Assembly: GCA_029933565.1 (NCBI GenBank)
Contig: JAOZNY010000006.1
Location: 1-33,227, forward strand
Source of the DNA: Bacteroidales bacterium
GTDB taxonomy: Bacteria > Bacteroidota > Bacteroidia > Bacteroidales > F082
Direction of reading: 5' to 3'
Length of the DNA stretch: 33,227 bases
Below are positions 2,909 through 32,553 of the stretch, piece after piece. Below the pieces are notes generated by a model, which ran no database searches, had not been told where the DNA came from, and was given only the letters and a program-made list of their open reading frames with translations. Position numbers and translations under genes: made by a program. Numbering within the stretch: position 1 is the first letter of the stretch; each line of letters starts with the position of its first letter.

Positions 2909-3241
2909 ATGGATAATATATTATATGATAATGAATTTGTTCTTGATGAGTTTAACCCTGTTGCCATTCGAATAAAAATTGCTGAAAAGATAAAGAAAAA
3001 GCGCTTGAGTCTTGGACTTGGGCAACAGACGTTAGCAAAAAAGTCGGGGGTAAGTTTGGGAAGTTTAAAGCGTTTTGAAAACAAATATGAAATATCCCTC
3101 AAACATCTTTTACAACTGGCAATGGTTTTGGGTGCTTTGGATGAGTTTAATAACCTCTTTCCTGAGAAAGAATTCAACAGCATTGATGAGATATTAAAAT
3201 CAAAAAAAATCAAAGAACGCAAAAGGGGGAAAAATGATTAA
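2909..3241 (+). CDS. HipB-like helix-turn-helix antitoxin/regulator
   Basis: Xre-type HTH (KKKRLSLGLGQQTLAKKSGVSLGSLKRFENKYEISLKHLLQLAMVLGAL); overlaps the following HipA-like gene by 8 nt. Confidence 0.8.
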   Translation: MDNILYDNEFVLDEFNPVAIRIKIAEKIKKKRLSLGLGQQTLAKKSGVSLGSLKRFENKYEISLKHLLQLAMVLGALDEFNNLFPEKEFNSIDEILKSKKIKERKRGKND

Positions 3242-4334
3242 GGAAACAGAATTGATCAAAGTAAAAATTGGAAACCAAAAAGTTGGCACCTTAATCCTAT
3301 CTAATAACAACTTATGCTTGTTTGAATACGACAGGGAATTTGTTTCTGCCGGCTTTTCAATCTCTCCATTTTATTTACCATTAAAATCTGGGGTTTTTAC
3401 AGCAAAACGTGATCCCTTTAATGGACTTTTTGGTATTTTCAACGACAGTTTGCCAGATGGATGGGGCTCCCTTTTAATTAATAGATATCTCAAAAGCAAA
3501 AACATCAACCCTGCTGATTTATCTGTTCTCCATAGGCTAAGCCTTGTTGGTAATTCAGGAATGGGGGCTCTGGAGTTCGAGCCCAATACCACTCTTAAAA
3601 CGGCACAAGAAATAACCGACCTTAACCAAATTGCCAACGAAATAGAAATAATATTTAAGGAGGAGAAAGAAAGCTCTTGTTTGGAACAATTAGTCCAACA
3701 GGCAGGTTCTTCGGGAGGAGCACGCCCAAAAGTATTTGTTAATGTTAATAATGAATCATGGATAGTAAAATTCAGGTCATCGACCGACCCAATGAATATG
3801 GGGGAAATTGAATACCACTATTCGTTGGTAGCTAAAAAATGTAAAATTGAAATGCCAGAGACCACACTTTTTGAAAACAAGTATTATGGTGTTAAACGTT
3901 TTGATAGGTTTGCAGCAAAAAAAATATTGACCCATTCCGCATCTGGCTTGCTTTATGCCAGTCATCGCTTTCCGTCCCTTGATTATACCGAATTGATTAA
4001 GGCAACTCTGGCATTAACAAAAAACATGGAAGAGGCTCTCAAAGTTTTCCGCCTTATGGTTTTTAATGTATTAACCGGCAACAAGGACGACCATGCTAAG
4101 AACTTCTCTTTTTTGTACAGAAAAGGAAACTGGGAATTTGCCCCAGCCTACGATTTAGTACCAAGCAATGGCTTTAATGGAAATCACTCAACAACAATTT
4201 CTGGAAGCGGAAACCCAACCAAAGAACAAATTTTTAATGTTGCGCAAAACTGTGGTTTACCACAAAAAAATGTCAACATTATTTTTGAGGAAGTGTTTAT
4301 TGCTAGCAAAGAAATCCATAAGGTAAAACTGTAA
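3234..4334 (+). CDS. HipA-family serine/threonine kinase toxin
   Basis: N-terminal coupling region FNDSLPDGWG, Gly-rich loop AGSSGGARPKVFV, catalytic LTGNKDDHAKNFSF and FAPAYDLVPS. Confidence 0.9.
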   Translation: MIKETELIKVKIGNQKVGTLILSNNNLCLFEYDREFVSAGFSISPFYLPLKSGVFTAKRDPFNGLFGIFNDSLPDGWGSLLINRYLKSKNINPADLSVLHRLSLVGNSGMGALEFEPNTTLKTAQEITDLNQIANEIEIIFKEEKESSCLEQLVQQAGSSGGARPKVFVNVNNESWIVKFRSSTDPMNMGEIEYHYSLVAKKCKIEMPETTLFENKYYGVKRFDRFAAKKILTHSASGLLYASHRFPSLDYTELIKATLALTKNMEEALKVFRLMVFNVLTGNKDDHAKNFSFLYRKGNWEFAPAYDLVPSNGFNGNHSTTISGSGNPTKEQIFNVAQNCGLPQKNVNIIFEEVFIASKEIHKVKL

Positions 4335-27932: not shown

Positions 27933-28092
27933 ATGAAACTCCTCGCATCAAGTTGATGAAATATTTCAATCGAATTTTGTTTTTTTTACATCGTGCATCA
28001 ATATGCAGGGAATAAAACCCATGAGATCCCTCGGCTATCGCTCGGGATTAGTTCGGCTAAATGATTTTGAAAAACAAAATCATAGTCTCACT
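27933..28092 (+). repeat. Dispersed repeat copy 2
   Basis: Core 28014-28092 matches 801-879 at 76/79; contains perfect stem ATGATTTTG-aaaaa-CAAAATCAT (28061-28083). Confidence 0.85.
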
Positions 28093-29732
28093 TATTTAAG
28101 ACCCAGCATTTTAGGTCCCTGTTTGAAATAAATATCAACAGGAATACCTGCGTCGTTTACCCTTTGAAGGTCGTCTTTTAACTGATCTTTAATTATTCCA
28201 TCTTTCTCTATCCATGCTTTTGCTGCCTCGTAATCTCCATCACCCTGCATTTTTAAAATCTTTTGTGTTAAATCAGCTGCTGCAATTTTCATTTTATCTA
28301 TGTCGGTGGTGTAAGTACCATCTTCGTTACGGACAAAAGCACCTTTTTCCATAAAATAATTAAATCTTAACATATTTGCCATTCCGTGTGCACTTGATGC
28401 GCCAAAACGAACAGAACGGAAAATACCGGCCATAAAAGTAACATAGTTGTCCATGAGGTCGGTATCGTTAAACTCACCCATTTTGTTGAGTTTGGTAACC
28501 AGAAATAAACCAAGAATATCGGCTTTGCCTTCCTCAATGGCTGAATACTTTTCCTTTAGTGCTTTACGTGCTGAGCCTTTTCCATTAATGGTATTTTTTA
28601 TTCCTAAACCATGAGCCACTTCGTGAAACATGGTGTTTGAGAAAAACGCATCAAAAGTGATGTGTTTCCTTTGATCTTTGGCAATTAAAACATCGGCAAT
28701 GGGAACAAGGATATTATCAAATTTAGCACGCATGGCATTTTTCAACTGTAACTTTCGAGTTCCTTTTTGTAACTGAACTCTTTCATCATTTGGTAAATTG
28801 ATGGCAATGGTCTTGCCGGCCATATTACAGTCGCCTGCATAGTAAATCACATCGTAGGCGTTGAGGTCAACATCTGAACCTGGTGTTTCTGCTTTGTAGG
28901 CATCTTCAACGGGCAATTCCTTTTGAAGTTGAGGGAGGAAGGCTGCGTATTTAGAGAGTCTGTCGCTCCACACAACATCTTTAACCAAAACAAACGATTC
29001 GTGAGCGGCTTTGTAGCCAAACAACCCATCAGTATAATTTTCAATGGGACCCACAACAATGTCCACAAGATTGTTTTTCATGCTCAGCCATGCCATATCA
29101 CTTTCAAAATAATCATCGGTAAGCAGAGCCTTAGAACGTAATGTTAAATAATTGGCAAAATCTTTATCATCGGCAAAGGAGGCCGCCTCCAGCAGTAAGC
29201 CTGCTGCTTTTTCTACATGTGACTTAAAGGCATCGTGATACCAAACGATGGTAAGTTTTCCTTCGTCGTTACGTTTAACAAGTGTGTAAAGGTTAGTTTT
29301 GTCGGGATTGTCCCAGGCTTCAAATTCCTCAACAGTCATGTCGTGGGGATAGAATTGTGCCCCAGCCGGCTTCTTTTCATAACCATCAATAAAAGGCGCA
29401 AGGTTGTTTAATTCGTCCCAAGGACCGTAATTAATCTCAGCATAACGACGAATATTGTTGTCATCTATTCCCGATAAAAAATCTTGTTTGTCCCCAATAT
29501 TTTCCAACCAGAATATTTCTTCCATCACATCAGCAGCCTGGAATAGTTTCTTTAGCATTTCCCTTTGATTGTCACTTAAGTGAGAAATATCGGTTGTAAG
29601 TTTTACCTCAGCATATTTTGCCATTTTATAAGTGGTTTTTTCTTTGTTTTCTGAGGTCTTTTTTTCTGCGTTATCGCATGAAGTCAATATCATTGAAAAC
29701 ATCATTACGAAAAGTAAACTATATTTAATCAT
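28092..29732 (-). CDS. Lipoprotein zinc metallopeptidase-like protein, M49 (DPP III)-related
   Basis: Lipobox LTSC; HEVAHGLG (HExxH) and AIEEGKADILGLF, the two zinc-binding motifs in M49-like arrangement. Confidence 0.75.
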   Translation of the reverse strand: MIKYSLLFVMMFSMILTSCDNAEKKTSENKEKTTYKMAKYAEVKLTTDISHLSDNQREMLKKLFQAADVMEEIFWLENIGDKQDFLSGIDDNNIRRYAEINYGPWDELNNLAPFIDGYEKKPAGAQFYPHDMTVEEFEAWDNPDKTNLYTLVKRNDEGKLTIVWYHDAFKSHVEKAAGLLLEAASFADDKDFANYLTLRSKALLTDDYFESDMAWLSMKNNLVDIVVGPIENYTDGLFGYKAAHESFVLVKDVVWSDRLSKYAAFLPQLQKELPVEDAYKAETPGSDVDLNAYDVIYYAGDCNMAGKTIAINLPNDERVQLQKGTRKLQLKNAMRAKFDNILVPIADVLIAKDQRKHITFDAFFSNTMFHEVAHGLGIKNTINGKGSARKALKEKYSAIEEGKADILGLFLVTKLNKMGEFNDTDLMDNYVTFMAGIFRSVRFGASSAHGMANMLRFNYFMEKGAFVRNEDGTYTTDIDKMKIAAADLTQKILKMQGDGDYEAAKAWIEKDGIIKDQLKDDLQRVNDAGIPVDIYFKQGPKMLGLK

Positions 29733-29900: not shown

Positions 29901-31022
29901 TTATAAAAGAAACTCCTCCAAATTATATGGGCTTATGGTTTCGAAATAAGCAACTTGATAAGCTTTACTAAAAGTAAGTGGTATTTTTCCAGACTTTCGT
30001 GGATTTACTTTAAACTCAAAAACACTATATTGCCCATCCATTTCCTCAATAAGGTCTATTTCTTGTTGTTGTCGTGTCCTCCAAAAATAATGGCTTCCAT
30101 AAAACCCATCGTAGGAAGTTTTTTTTATTCTTTCGCTAATAATAAAATTTTCCCATAAAGCACCTTTATCTGTGCGTTTTTCCCAAGGAAGAAAATTACC
30201 AATTAAAGCATTGCGGATGCCATTATCGTGAAAGAATATTTTCTTGCCTTTTTTTATTTCGTTTCTAGTATTGCCACTAAGGGCATTAAGCCTGAAAATA
30301 ATAAAGGCTTTTTCAAGCAAATCAATATACCTTTCTACGGTTTCTTTATCAACTCCAACATTTCTGCTTAACTCAAGAAATGAAACCTCACTTCCTACCT
30401 GATGTGCCAGTAGTTTAAGTATTTTATCCAAAACAACGGGCTTCTTAATTTGTCCGAACGACAGAATGTCTTTGTATAAATAACTTCCTGCAAGATTTTT
30501 AAGCAGTTTTATTTCCTGTCCCTGACTAGTTACTATTTCAGGGTAATAACCATAAATCAATCGGGTGTTTAGCATTCGTTTTTCGGTAATTAACCCATGA
30601 TGGTTAACCATTTCCTGAAAAGATAAAGGAAATAAAATATATTCGAACTTCCTTCCGGTAAGAGGTTCGTTAATTGTATTTGCCAATTCAAGTGCTGAGG
30701 AACCGGAAACAAAAAGCCGCTTATCGCTTAAGTAATCAGTAATCAATTTCATTACTATTCCAATATTTGGTATCATTTGCGCTTCGTCGATAACAATGCT
30801 GTTGTAATTAGAAAACAGTTGGGTGAGTTGTAATGAATTTGTCCCTGTTAATAAATCCTTAGTGTCGGGTTCGTCACCATTCAAAAAAACCACTTTATCC
30901 TTTTTGCTGAACAAATTGTTCAATAGGGTTGTTTTGCCTACTTGTCGGGCTCCTAAAATTACAATTGCCTTTTTTTTATTGGTCTCTGATTTTATTAAAT
31001 GGATAATATTTCTTTCAATCAT
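29901..31022 (-). CDS. AAA-family ATPase with C-terminal DUF4143 (PD-(D/E)xK-like) domain, paralogue 1
   Basis: Walker A LGARQVGKTTLLN, Walker B SIVIDEAQ, QQQEIDLIEEMDGQYSVFEFKVNPRKSGK. Confidence 0.9.
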   Translation of the reverse strand: MIERNIIHLIKSETNKKKAIVILGARQVGKTTLLNNLFSKKDKVVFLNGDEPDTKDLLTGTNSLQLTQLFSNYNSIVIDEAQMIPNIGIVMKLITDYLSDKRLFVSGSSALELANTINEPLTGRKFEYILFPLSFQEMVNHHGLITEKRMLNTRLIYGYYPEIVTSQGQEIKLLKNLAGSYLYKDILSFGQIKKPVVLDKILKLLAHQVGSEVSFLELSRNVGVDKETVERYIDLLEKAFIIFRLNALSGNTRNEIKKGKKIFFHDNGIRNALIGNFLPWEKRTDKGALWENFIISERIKKTSYDGFYGSHYFWRTRQQQEIDLIEEMDGQYSVFEFKVNPRKSGKIPLTFSKAYQVAYFETISPYNLEEFLL

Positions 31023-31029
31023 AACTTTG

Positions 31030-31037
31030 CAAATATA
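31030..31037 (-). promoter_or_regulatory. Predicted -7 element (TATATTTG on the minus strand) of ATPase paralogue 1
   Basis: CAAATATA on plus strand, directly adjacent to the 31043-31124 palindrome array. Confidence 0.45.
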
Positions 31038-31042
31038 ATAAA

Positions 31043-31124
31043 TTTCGTATTGAAACGAAAAATGTTATGCTTATTTTCGTATTAAAACGAAAAATGTTAT
31101 GCCTTATTTCGTATTAAAACGAGA
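31043..31124. repeat. Three tandem 18-bp palindromes (TTTCGT-N6-ACGAAA), 32-bp period
   Basis: 31043-31060, 31075-31092, 31107-31124 (last arm ACGAGA); linker AATGTTATGC repeated. Confidence 0.92.
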
Positions 31125-31128
31125 AATA

Positions 31129-32433
31129 TTATTGTTGTGATGCAAGAAATGAGGCATAATAAATTGGAATAAATTCAAGTTTTTGGGTTTTCAATTTTCC
31201 TAATTCGCCATGAGAAAGAACGTAGGCGTTTTTAATATCGGCAAATTGATTCAATAATAGGTGCAGGCTTTTTAAACTTCCTGAACTACCACTTTTTACT
31301 TCAACGGGAATTATTTCGTTGTTTACGGCCAACAAATAATCAACTTCAGCACTACTGCTTTTCGATTGCCTTGCCCAATAATAAAGATTCTTCTGTCCGG
31401 CAGCCAAAAATTCCTGACCAACAAACTGCTCTGCCATCGCCCCTTGAAATACTGTATTAATATTATGTTTTATTTCCAGAAAACTATTGCTCAATCCGTT
31501 AAGATGAGCCATTAACCCAATGTCCAAAAAAACAGATTTGAATTTCTTTTCGTTTGCACCTGCTTCAAGAGGAAGGCCGGAAGGGCTTGTTGCCTTTATT
31601 TTACGGAGCAACCGGGCATTGGTAAGTGCGTTGAAAGCACTTTTTATTGTTGGGTTAGTAAAGCCACTTGCCAATTGCGAATACTTAATTTGTTTACCGG
31701 TAGATTTGGCGGCAGACGACAAAACTGTGTTCAGGCATTCAGTATTTACAGCAGGGGAGTATTTTGAAAAATCTTGAGCGTAAGTATAAAGTAAATCGGA
31801 ATGTATTTCGAATACCTCTGAAATTCTCCCCCCATTACTAAAATGTTTGACTGCTTCGGGCATACCTCCGACAAAAAAATAGGTAAACACATCCTCCAAA
31901 ATTGTTTGATGGATGATTGCCGAAAGTTGTTTGGGTTGTGAATTTATTATTTCATTCACCTGCTCTTTTCCATTTGCCCTTAAAAACTCAGAAAAACTCA
32001 TGGGTAACATTTCCTGGGTTTGAACCCTGCCCACAGGAAAGGGAATATTATTGAGTGTGAATTCAAGTAGCGAACCGGCTGCAATTACGTGAATTTCGGA
32101 TAGTTGTTCATAAAAATACCGTAATGACATTATTGCATTTGGACAGTTCTGTATTTCATCGAAAAATAAAAGGTCGTGTTCAGAATTGATTTTACTATTA
32201 AGCAAAACTTCCAGTTCGCCAATAATTCTACCAGCGTCTAAATCTTGCTCAAAGATGCCCTTCCATTTTGGGTTTTTCTCAAAGTTTACCTGATGTACTT
32301 TTCCTTTGTACTGTTTACCGAATTCCAGAATGCTGTAAGTTTTACCTACTTGCCTGGCTCCTCTAATTATCAAAGGTTTACGATGATCGGAGTTTTTCCA
32401 TTGTATTAATTTGTCCTGAATATCCCTCTCCAT
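31129..32433 (-). CDS. AAA-family ATPase with C-terminal DUF4143 (PD-(D/E)xK-like) domain, paralogue 2
   Basis: Walker A RGARQVGKTYSILE, Walker B LLFFDEIQNCP, SSSAEVDYLLAVNNEIIPVEVKSGSSGSLKSL. Confidence 0.92.
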   Translation of the reverse strand: MERDIQDKLIQWKNSDHRKPLIIRGARQVGKTYSILEFGKQYKGKVHQVNFEKNPKWKGIFEQDLDAGRIIGELEVLLNSKINSEHDLLFFDEIQNCPNAIMSLRYFYEQLSEIHVIAAGSLLEFTLNNIPFPVGRVQTQEMLPMSFSEFLRANGKEQVNEIINSQPKQLSAIIHQTILEDVFTYFFVGGMPEAVKHFSNGGRISEVFEIHSDLLYTYAQDFSKYSPAVNTECLNTVLSSAAKSTGKQIKYSQLASGFTNPTIKSAFNALTNARLLRKIKATSPSGLPLEAGANEKKFKSVFLDIGLMAHLNGLSNSFLEIKHNINTVFQGAMAEQFVGQEFLAAGQKNLYYWARQSKSSSAEVDYLLAVNNEIIPVEVKSGSSGSLKSLHLLLNQFADIKNAYVLSHGELGKLKTQKLEFIPIYYASFLASQQ

Positions 32434-32450
32434 CTCAATTGTTTTTTGAG

Positions 32451-32481
32451 CAAAGATAGTCTATTTACTTTAAAAACACAA
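32451..32481 (-). promoter_or_regulatory. Predicted promoter of ATPase paralogue 2 (minus strand TTG-N20-TATCTTTG)
   Basis: CAAAGATA at 32451-32458 and CAA at 32479-32481 on plus strand; the latter lies within repeat copy 1. Confidence 0.5.
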
Positions 32482-32553
32482 GGGTCTTTTTAAAATGATA
32501 CTTTAAAAACACAAGGGTCTTTTTAAAATGATACTTTAAAAAGGAAGGGGTGA
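32466..32553. repeat. Perfect 33-bp tandem repeat (two full copies plus partial third) with internal inverted arms
   Basis: TACTTTAAAAACACAAGGGTCTTTTTAAAATGA at 32466-32498 and 32499-32531 (identical); partial TACTTTAAAAA... from 32532. Arms ACTTTAAAAA/TTTTTAAAAT (9/10). Confidence 0.95.

Follow-up and report, generated by a model that had tools for sequence, protein, structure and literature searches.

The two genes that close the window, by which we mean the whole 33,227-nucleotide stretch of contig JAOZNY010000006.1 (assembly GCA_029933565.1) analysed here, are neighbours on the minus strand, and both encode an ATPase with a nuclease-type domain. ATPase 1 (29901..31022, minus strand, 373 aa) combines an AAA_14 domain, a winged helix-turn-helix (wHTH) and a DUF4143 domain of the PD-(D/E)xK type, and ATPase 2 (31129..32433, minus strand, 434 aa) combines an AAA_14 and a DUF4143 domain. 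Both Pfam domains score above cut-off in both proteins, and the PDC-S01 models of PADLOC match the two over nearly their whole length (E 3e-154 and 8e-138). We refer to the relatives of ATPase 1 as the short clade and to those of ATPase 2 as the long clade. A first-pass annotation, made from the sequence alone, had pointed to Walker A/B and E-x-D ... E-x-K motifs in both proteins; these residues are indeed intact in both, and form invariant columns among the relatives. In ATPase 1 the Walker A motif (GARQVGKT) spans residues 24-31 (30930..30953, minus strand), and the nuclease motif region, with E321-x-D323 ... E336-x-K338 invariant in relatives, spans residues 321-338 (30009..30062, minus strand). 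The AlphaFold model of this protein (mean pLDDT 90.5) places a winged-helix domain at residues 195-247 (30282..30440, minus strand), between the AAA and nuclease domains, and its predicted recognition helix at residues 226-238. Residues 225-231 (DKETVER; 30330..30350, minus strand), the N-terminal part of this helix, covary with the operator half-site described below. ATPase 2 has a putative recognition helix at residues 260-268 (NPTIKSAFN; 31630..31656, minus strand), the class of which tracks a CCTTGT-type array at the clade level only. A search of the PDB found no sequence relative, and the source assembly contains 15 DUF4143 matches. Elsewhere in the window, a HipB/HipA-type pair (HTH_3 plus Couple_hipA/HipA_C) is located at 2909-4334, and a repeat of roughly 100 bp, at 28000-28103 and 791-886, recurs on many contigs of the same assembly with 89-96% identity.

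Both genes are preceded by a tandem array. Array A (31034..31129), upstream of ATPase 1, consists of three 32-bp units with candidate operators of the form TTTCGT-N6-ACGAAA at 31043-31060, 31075-31092 and 31107-31124. The first two sites are perfect and the third reads TTTCGT-N6-ACGAGA; of the earlier description as three palindromes at 32-bp spacing, the spacing holds exactly (32, 32), but the third copy carries one mismatch. As also described earlier, the array extends to the stop codon of ATPase 2 (31129-31131). A whole-assembly pattern search found TTTCGT-N6-ACGAAA nowhere else in the 3.24-Mb assembly, and a second gene under the array A operator was rejected because the pattern is unique there. 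Array B (32466..32551), upstream of ATPase 2, is built of 33-bp units with the core ACCCTTGTGTTTTTAAAG on the minus strand, and comprises two identical copies at 32466-32531 and a third, partial copy of 20 nt (80%) at 32532-32551. The perfect tandem pair had been recognised correctly, and its inverted arms are long (27 nt) as claimed, but only 78% complementary. Directly 3' of the array, both genes have a TAnnTTTG box: the -7 box of ATPase 1, TATATTTG (CAAATATA on the plus strand), lies at 31030..31037 (minus strand) in a fixed register with the array, and that of ATPase 2, TATCTTTG (CAAAGATA on the plus strand), at 32451..32458 (minus strand). The suggestion that the two arrays share a common design holds in part, as both are tandem and near TAnnTTTG, but array B belongs to a directional 33-bp class, so the palindromic likeness is only partial. 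Judged by eye, most of the paralogues in the source assembly that have upstream DNA possess their own, differing repeats or palindromes beside TAnnTTTG.

Autocorrelation of the 145 bp upstream was compared between 231 short-clade genes, 39 long-clade genes (a set without the window's own ATPase 2, which is included in the comparison of helix and array classes below), 81 other DUF4143 genes and 998 control genes, the controls being other genes of the same loci. The short clade peaked at exactly 32 bp (0.409 vs about 0.295, z 13.9) with a harmonic at 64, and the long clade at 33 bp (z 13.4) with a harmonic at 66, whereas neither the 81 other DUF4143 genes nor the 998 control genes had a 32/33-bp periodic peak. 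The 32-bp peak was repeated (0.403) in 47 further genes from other orders and classes. The window arrays show exactly the periods of their clades, 32 bp for the short and 33 bp for the long. The period is constant within a clade and the repeat sequence varies gene by gene, so that one general rule, a clade-fixed period with a gene-specific sequence, covers the window case; that the exact period is a trait of the clade is a point absent from the first-pass annotation. Tandem arrays, called at a tandem score of at least 12 with a period of 31-34, were found upstream of 145 of 230 short-clade and 32 of 38 long-clade genes, compared with 4 of 75 other DUF4143 and 13 of 874 control genes, which is the enrichment among homologues that the annotation had proposed to look for. 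About a third of the short-clade genes lack a detectable tandem array. The strongest control arrays mostly belong to a divergent neighbour across the same ATPase array, plus two simple repeats. In a subgroup of the short clade (L001, L040, L078, L163 and relatives), one widely spaced palindrome, ATCGTAATGAC ... GTCATTACGAT, takes the place of the tandem array; dispersed intergenic repeats with a CGTTGTGCACAAGC-like end are often close by. Upstream 33-bp repeats were also seen at the distant DUF4143 relatives L117 (4183-5395), L356 and L362, two of which are on contigs from viral collections.

TAnnTTTG was present at most 75 bp from the start in 82% of the short-clade, 55% of the long-clade and 16% of the control genes, and the distance from this box to the operator centre was 15-20 modulo 32 in about 90 of 99 short-clade genes. 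Promoters of Bacteroidota are laid out with -33 and -7 elements. Given this layout, and because of the constant phase to the -7 box, the operator would cover the -33 to -7 region, which is the geometry of a repressor site.

The half-sites of 127 genes were extracted blind to the protein and tested against about 365 alignment columns. The strongest combined association among these columns was that of residue 227, at the start of the recognition helix (z 14.6 for half-site base X5), followed in the same helix by residue 226 with X5 (z 8.8) and residue 225 with X4 (z 8.2); some near-invariant columns, e.g. 160 and 351, also reached high z values, probably inflated by tiny variances. Lysine, histidine or arginine at 227 goes with G at X5, glutamate or glutamine with C, and asparagine with T (K with G in 34 of 38 genes, E with C in 21 of 27, N with T in 20 of 21, Q with C in 11 of 15). 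Likewise, 225D goes with G at X4 (94/102) and 231K with A at X3 (61/64). Phylogenetically independent pairs, taken from a tree built without the helix, gave 5.9 vs 0.1 for 227K and X5 G, 6.4 vs 0.5 for 225D and X4 G, and 5.4 vs 0.0 for 231K and X3 A, the pairs being few and single tests lying near or above p = 0.05, with only some pairings at p < 0.05. Furthermore, a prediction rule written down before new genes were scored named the right X5 base in 16 of 19 held-out genes, against 8.9 on average under permutation (p = 0.00015), and the rules for X4 and X3 were right in 24 of 29 and 10 of 12; for a number of genes the half-site phase is ambiguous, and a wrongly set phase is likely in two of the three X5 misses. 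ATPase 1 (D225, E227), itself among the training genes, fits the code, its half-site TTTCGT having G at X4 and C at X5. Long-clade arrays fall into three classes (CCTTGT, GGAGATAA and CAATAGTG), which pair with three helix classes, at the clade level only. When whole-protein or domain identity was compared with half-site distance, the wHTH did not stand out (Spearman 0.20-0.32 across all segments); the column-wise analysis alone picked it out. With regard to the earlier suggestion that divergence of the arrays may keep paralogues insulated, none of 25 within-genome paralogue pairs had identical half-sites, about 0.3 being expected.

The earlier idea that the arrays diverge with the protein is thereby supported down to single residues of the recognition helix, as exemplified by the 16 of 19 held-out genes. 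That members of this ATPase family read their own array, each with its own specificity, is well supported at the level of sequence. Because the half-site bases covary with recognition-helix residues, the protein appears to read its own array, which points to autoregulation. Each ATPase had been suggested to recognise its array either for autoregulation or as a target or immunity site; it is the autoregulation arm that the array, its link to the promoter and the helix covariation favour.

Array and gene also appear to travel together. In pairs of 85-98% identity from different genomes, the shared DNA is mostly confined to the stretch from the array, 50-140 bp ahead of the start, to no more than about 30 bp from the stop; syntenic species pairs, L110/L119 and L140/L157 among them, are the exceptions. 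At the window locus itself, identified by the same flanking genes, one congener (G003) has ATPase 2 without ATPase 1, and another (G002) has neither, although the absence of ATPase 1 in G003 may represent a loss there instead of a gain in the window. Copy number of the family within the genus is 0, 22, 16 and 0 matches. Of 182 units, 37 lie between direct repeats (8 inverted), compared with 1 of about 246 control genes; three 800-bp 'repeats' among the controls were artefacts, the genes in question lying at or close to the start of a contig. The bracketing repeats are 26-230 bp long and some are dispersed host repeats; none was found around ATPase 1. Target duplication as the origin of all flanking repeats was rejected, since those of L040 and L077 are dispersed host repeats and only 10 of 29 are in coding DNA. 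At L126, L386, L376 and L378 a duplicate of the upstream gene's 3' end (53-144 bp) follows the ATPase unit, as though the target had been copied during insertion. In one congeneric pair (L455, 6758-11300, and L456, 3400-4740), direct-orientation array copies flank the ATPase on both sides, and in G697 of this pair GmrSD_N (GmrSD-like), AAA_15/21 and YoeB-like genes are located between the array copies. Downstream array copies as general ends of the unit were rejected, as they are clear only in L391/G697 and the case of L120 is a possible tandem duplication. Phage cargo was also rejected, as 2.9 million viral contigs yielded only a small number of relatives (36 and 8 loci), most of them distant. 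As expected of a mobile element, one and the same unit occurs at unrelated sites, and relatives carry empty sites. Judging from these edges and sites, the array with its gene is a mobile single-gene unit, which the first-pass annotation had missed.

We consider it quite probable that the window genes are self-recognising, self-regulated and mobile single-gene units. The reading is backed by the period, the register, the residue-to-base code, the held-out prediction, the unit edges and the empty sites, all of them sequence features; binding, dimers, repression, nuclease activity and the mode of insertion are what we infer from these. The unit would consist of one gene, for an AAA ATPase with a winged helix and a PD-(D/E)xK nuclease-type domain, and of the operator array that precedes it and overlies its promoter. 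The recognition helix of the wHTH would read the array, with residue 227 specifying X5, 225 specifying X4 and 231 specifying X3. Proteins of the short clade would most likely bind as dimers on the palindromic 18-mers every 32 bp, i.e. three helical turns, and long-clade proteins in units repeated at 33 bp. Because the operator spans the -33 to -7 region in fixed register, the most likely outcome is that the protein, once bound, represses the transcription of its own gene, with cooperativity along the array; activation would leave identical traces in the sequence. As expected of an autoregulated gene, the sites recur over its promoter in a constant register, and the covariation and the held-out prediction suggest that the product reads them. 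Array and gene would move between genomes together, so that each copy would arrive with a matched operator and its own control.

A possibility that we put at somewhat short of an even chance is that the gene serves in anti-phage defence (PDC-S01), the ATPase-nuclease attacking incoming DNA and the array keeping its level low until infection. This is compatible with autoregulation, and is in line with the PDC-S01 model matches, the invariant nuclease residues and the rank of PDC-S01 in the literature, fourth by frequency among the candidate defence systems of prokaryotes (PMC12988326). However, validation is pending for most such candidates (PMC12988326), and defence families are about as frequent among adjacent genes as among distal ones (about 13/86 vs about 13/80, a rough count). 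Moreover, mobility alone would put such genes inside other systems, as in the 'guilt-by-embedding' choice of PDC candidates (PMC12988326). Membership in a defence island was rejected, as adjacent genes show no excess of PADLOC families, and from these neighbourhood counts the defence label stands on weak ground here.

More doubtful is a single-gene selfish element, in which the ATPase-nuclease would spread its own unit and the array would also be acted on in transposition, as an end, attachment or protection site. The patchy copy number in the genus, the sharp unit edges, the empty sites, the excess of direct repeats over controls and the locus pair with array copies on both sides of the ATPase all speak for such an element. 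The protein, however, contains no transposase-like domain, the direct repeats vary in length, include dispersed host repeats and do not bracket ATPase 1, and sharp edges would likewise result if the units were spread passively, by recombination or by other elements. We think it unlikely that PDC-S01 genes are mainly self-propagating elements, in which the private array would be read both for self-silencing and for directing insertion or protecting the own copy. If true, a top-counted 'defence system' would turn out to be, for the most part, a mobile element of a new kind, with array and recognition helix co-evolving as a matched pair.

Repeats over a promoter are usually sites for a regulator, and a separate host regulator, not the ATPase, could be thought to bind the arrays. 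We consider this very improbable and rejected it on the private, helix-matched repeat sequences: a host regulator would give one shared motif, whereas each paralogue differs, and the array bases track residues of the ATPase's own recognition helix. A neutral origin of the arrays, by tandem duplication or slippage, for which the recent look of the perfect 33-bp copies in array B might speak, has a negligible chance and was rejected on the exact clade-wide 32/33-bp periods in hundreds of unrelated sequences, the fixed register and the residue covariation.

In published work PDC-S01 is an abundant candidate for phage defence without validation, with 29,494 bacterial and 9,986 archaeal systems (PMC12988326), and no other single locus was as frequent in a rumen survey (PMC13356809). 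In the open-licence literature searched, we found neither a tested function of PDC-S01 nor a description of operator arrays, a recognition code or single-gene mobility for it; the full-text match to DUF4143 was to work on Argonaute in Thermus only. This very common, uncharacterised ATPase-nuclease gene is present in tens of thousands of genomic copies and is counted as a possible virus-defence gene. The arrays name the DNA that each protein most likely binds, and the residue-to-base code lends itself to a test with a single amino-acid swap. Movement of one gene could alone explain the embedding of PDC-S01 in other systems.

The window proteins have the ATPase plus PD-(D/E)xK layout of PDC-S01 (PMC12988326). 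Compared on fold alone, the best whole-length match with an ATPase of this kind is to the archaeal Walker-type/STAND ATPases such as PAB2304 (PDB 2qen; TM about 0.5, E 1e-7), and this match is partial. Phage repressors and plasmid Rep proteins with iterons are autorepressed genes with operator arrays. The units described here resemble them in that the protein would read a repeated site at its own promoter, with units spaced by whole helical turns, but differ in that an AAA ATPase carrying a nuclease-type domain would be the reader, and in that specificity changes from one gene to the next inside the same genome. Single-gene mobile elements, free-standing homing endonucleases among them, are similar in having one gene, its own site-specific DNA reader and a patchy spread, and we know of no homing family that is involved in the window units. 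For homing endonucleases the recognised site is the empty target, whereas here it sits in the promoter and travels with the gene.
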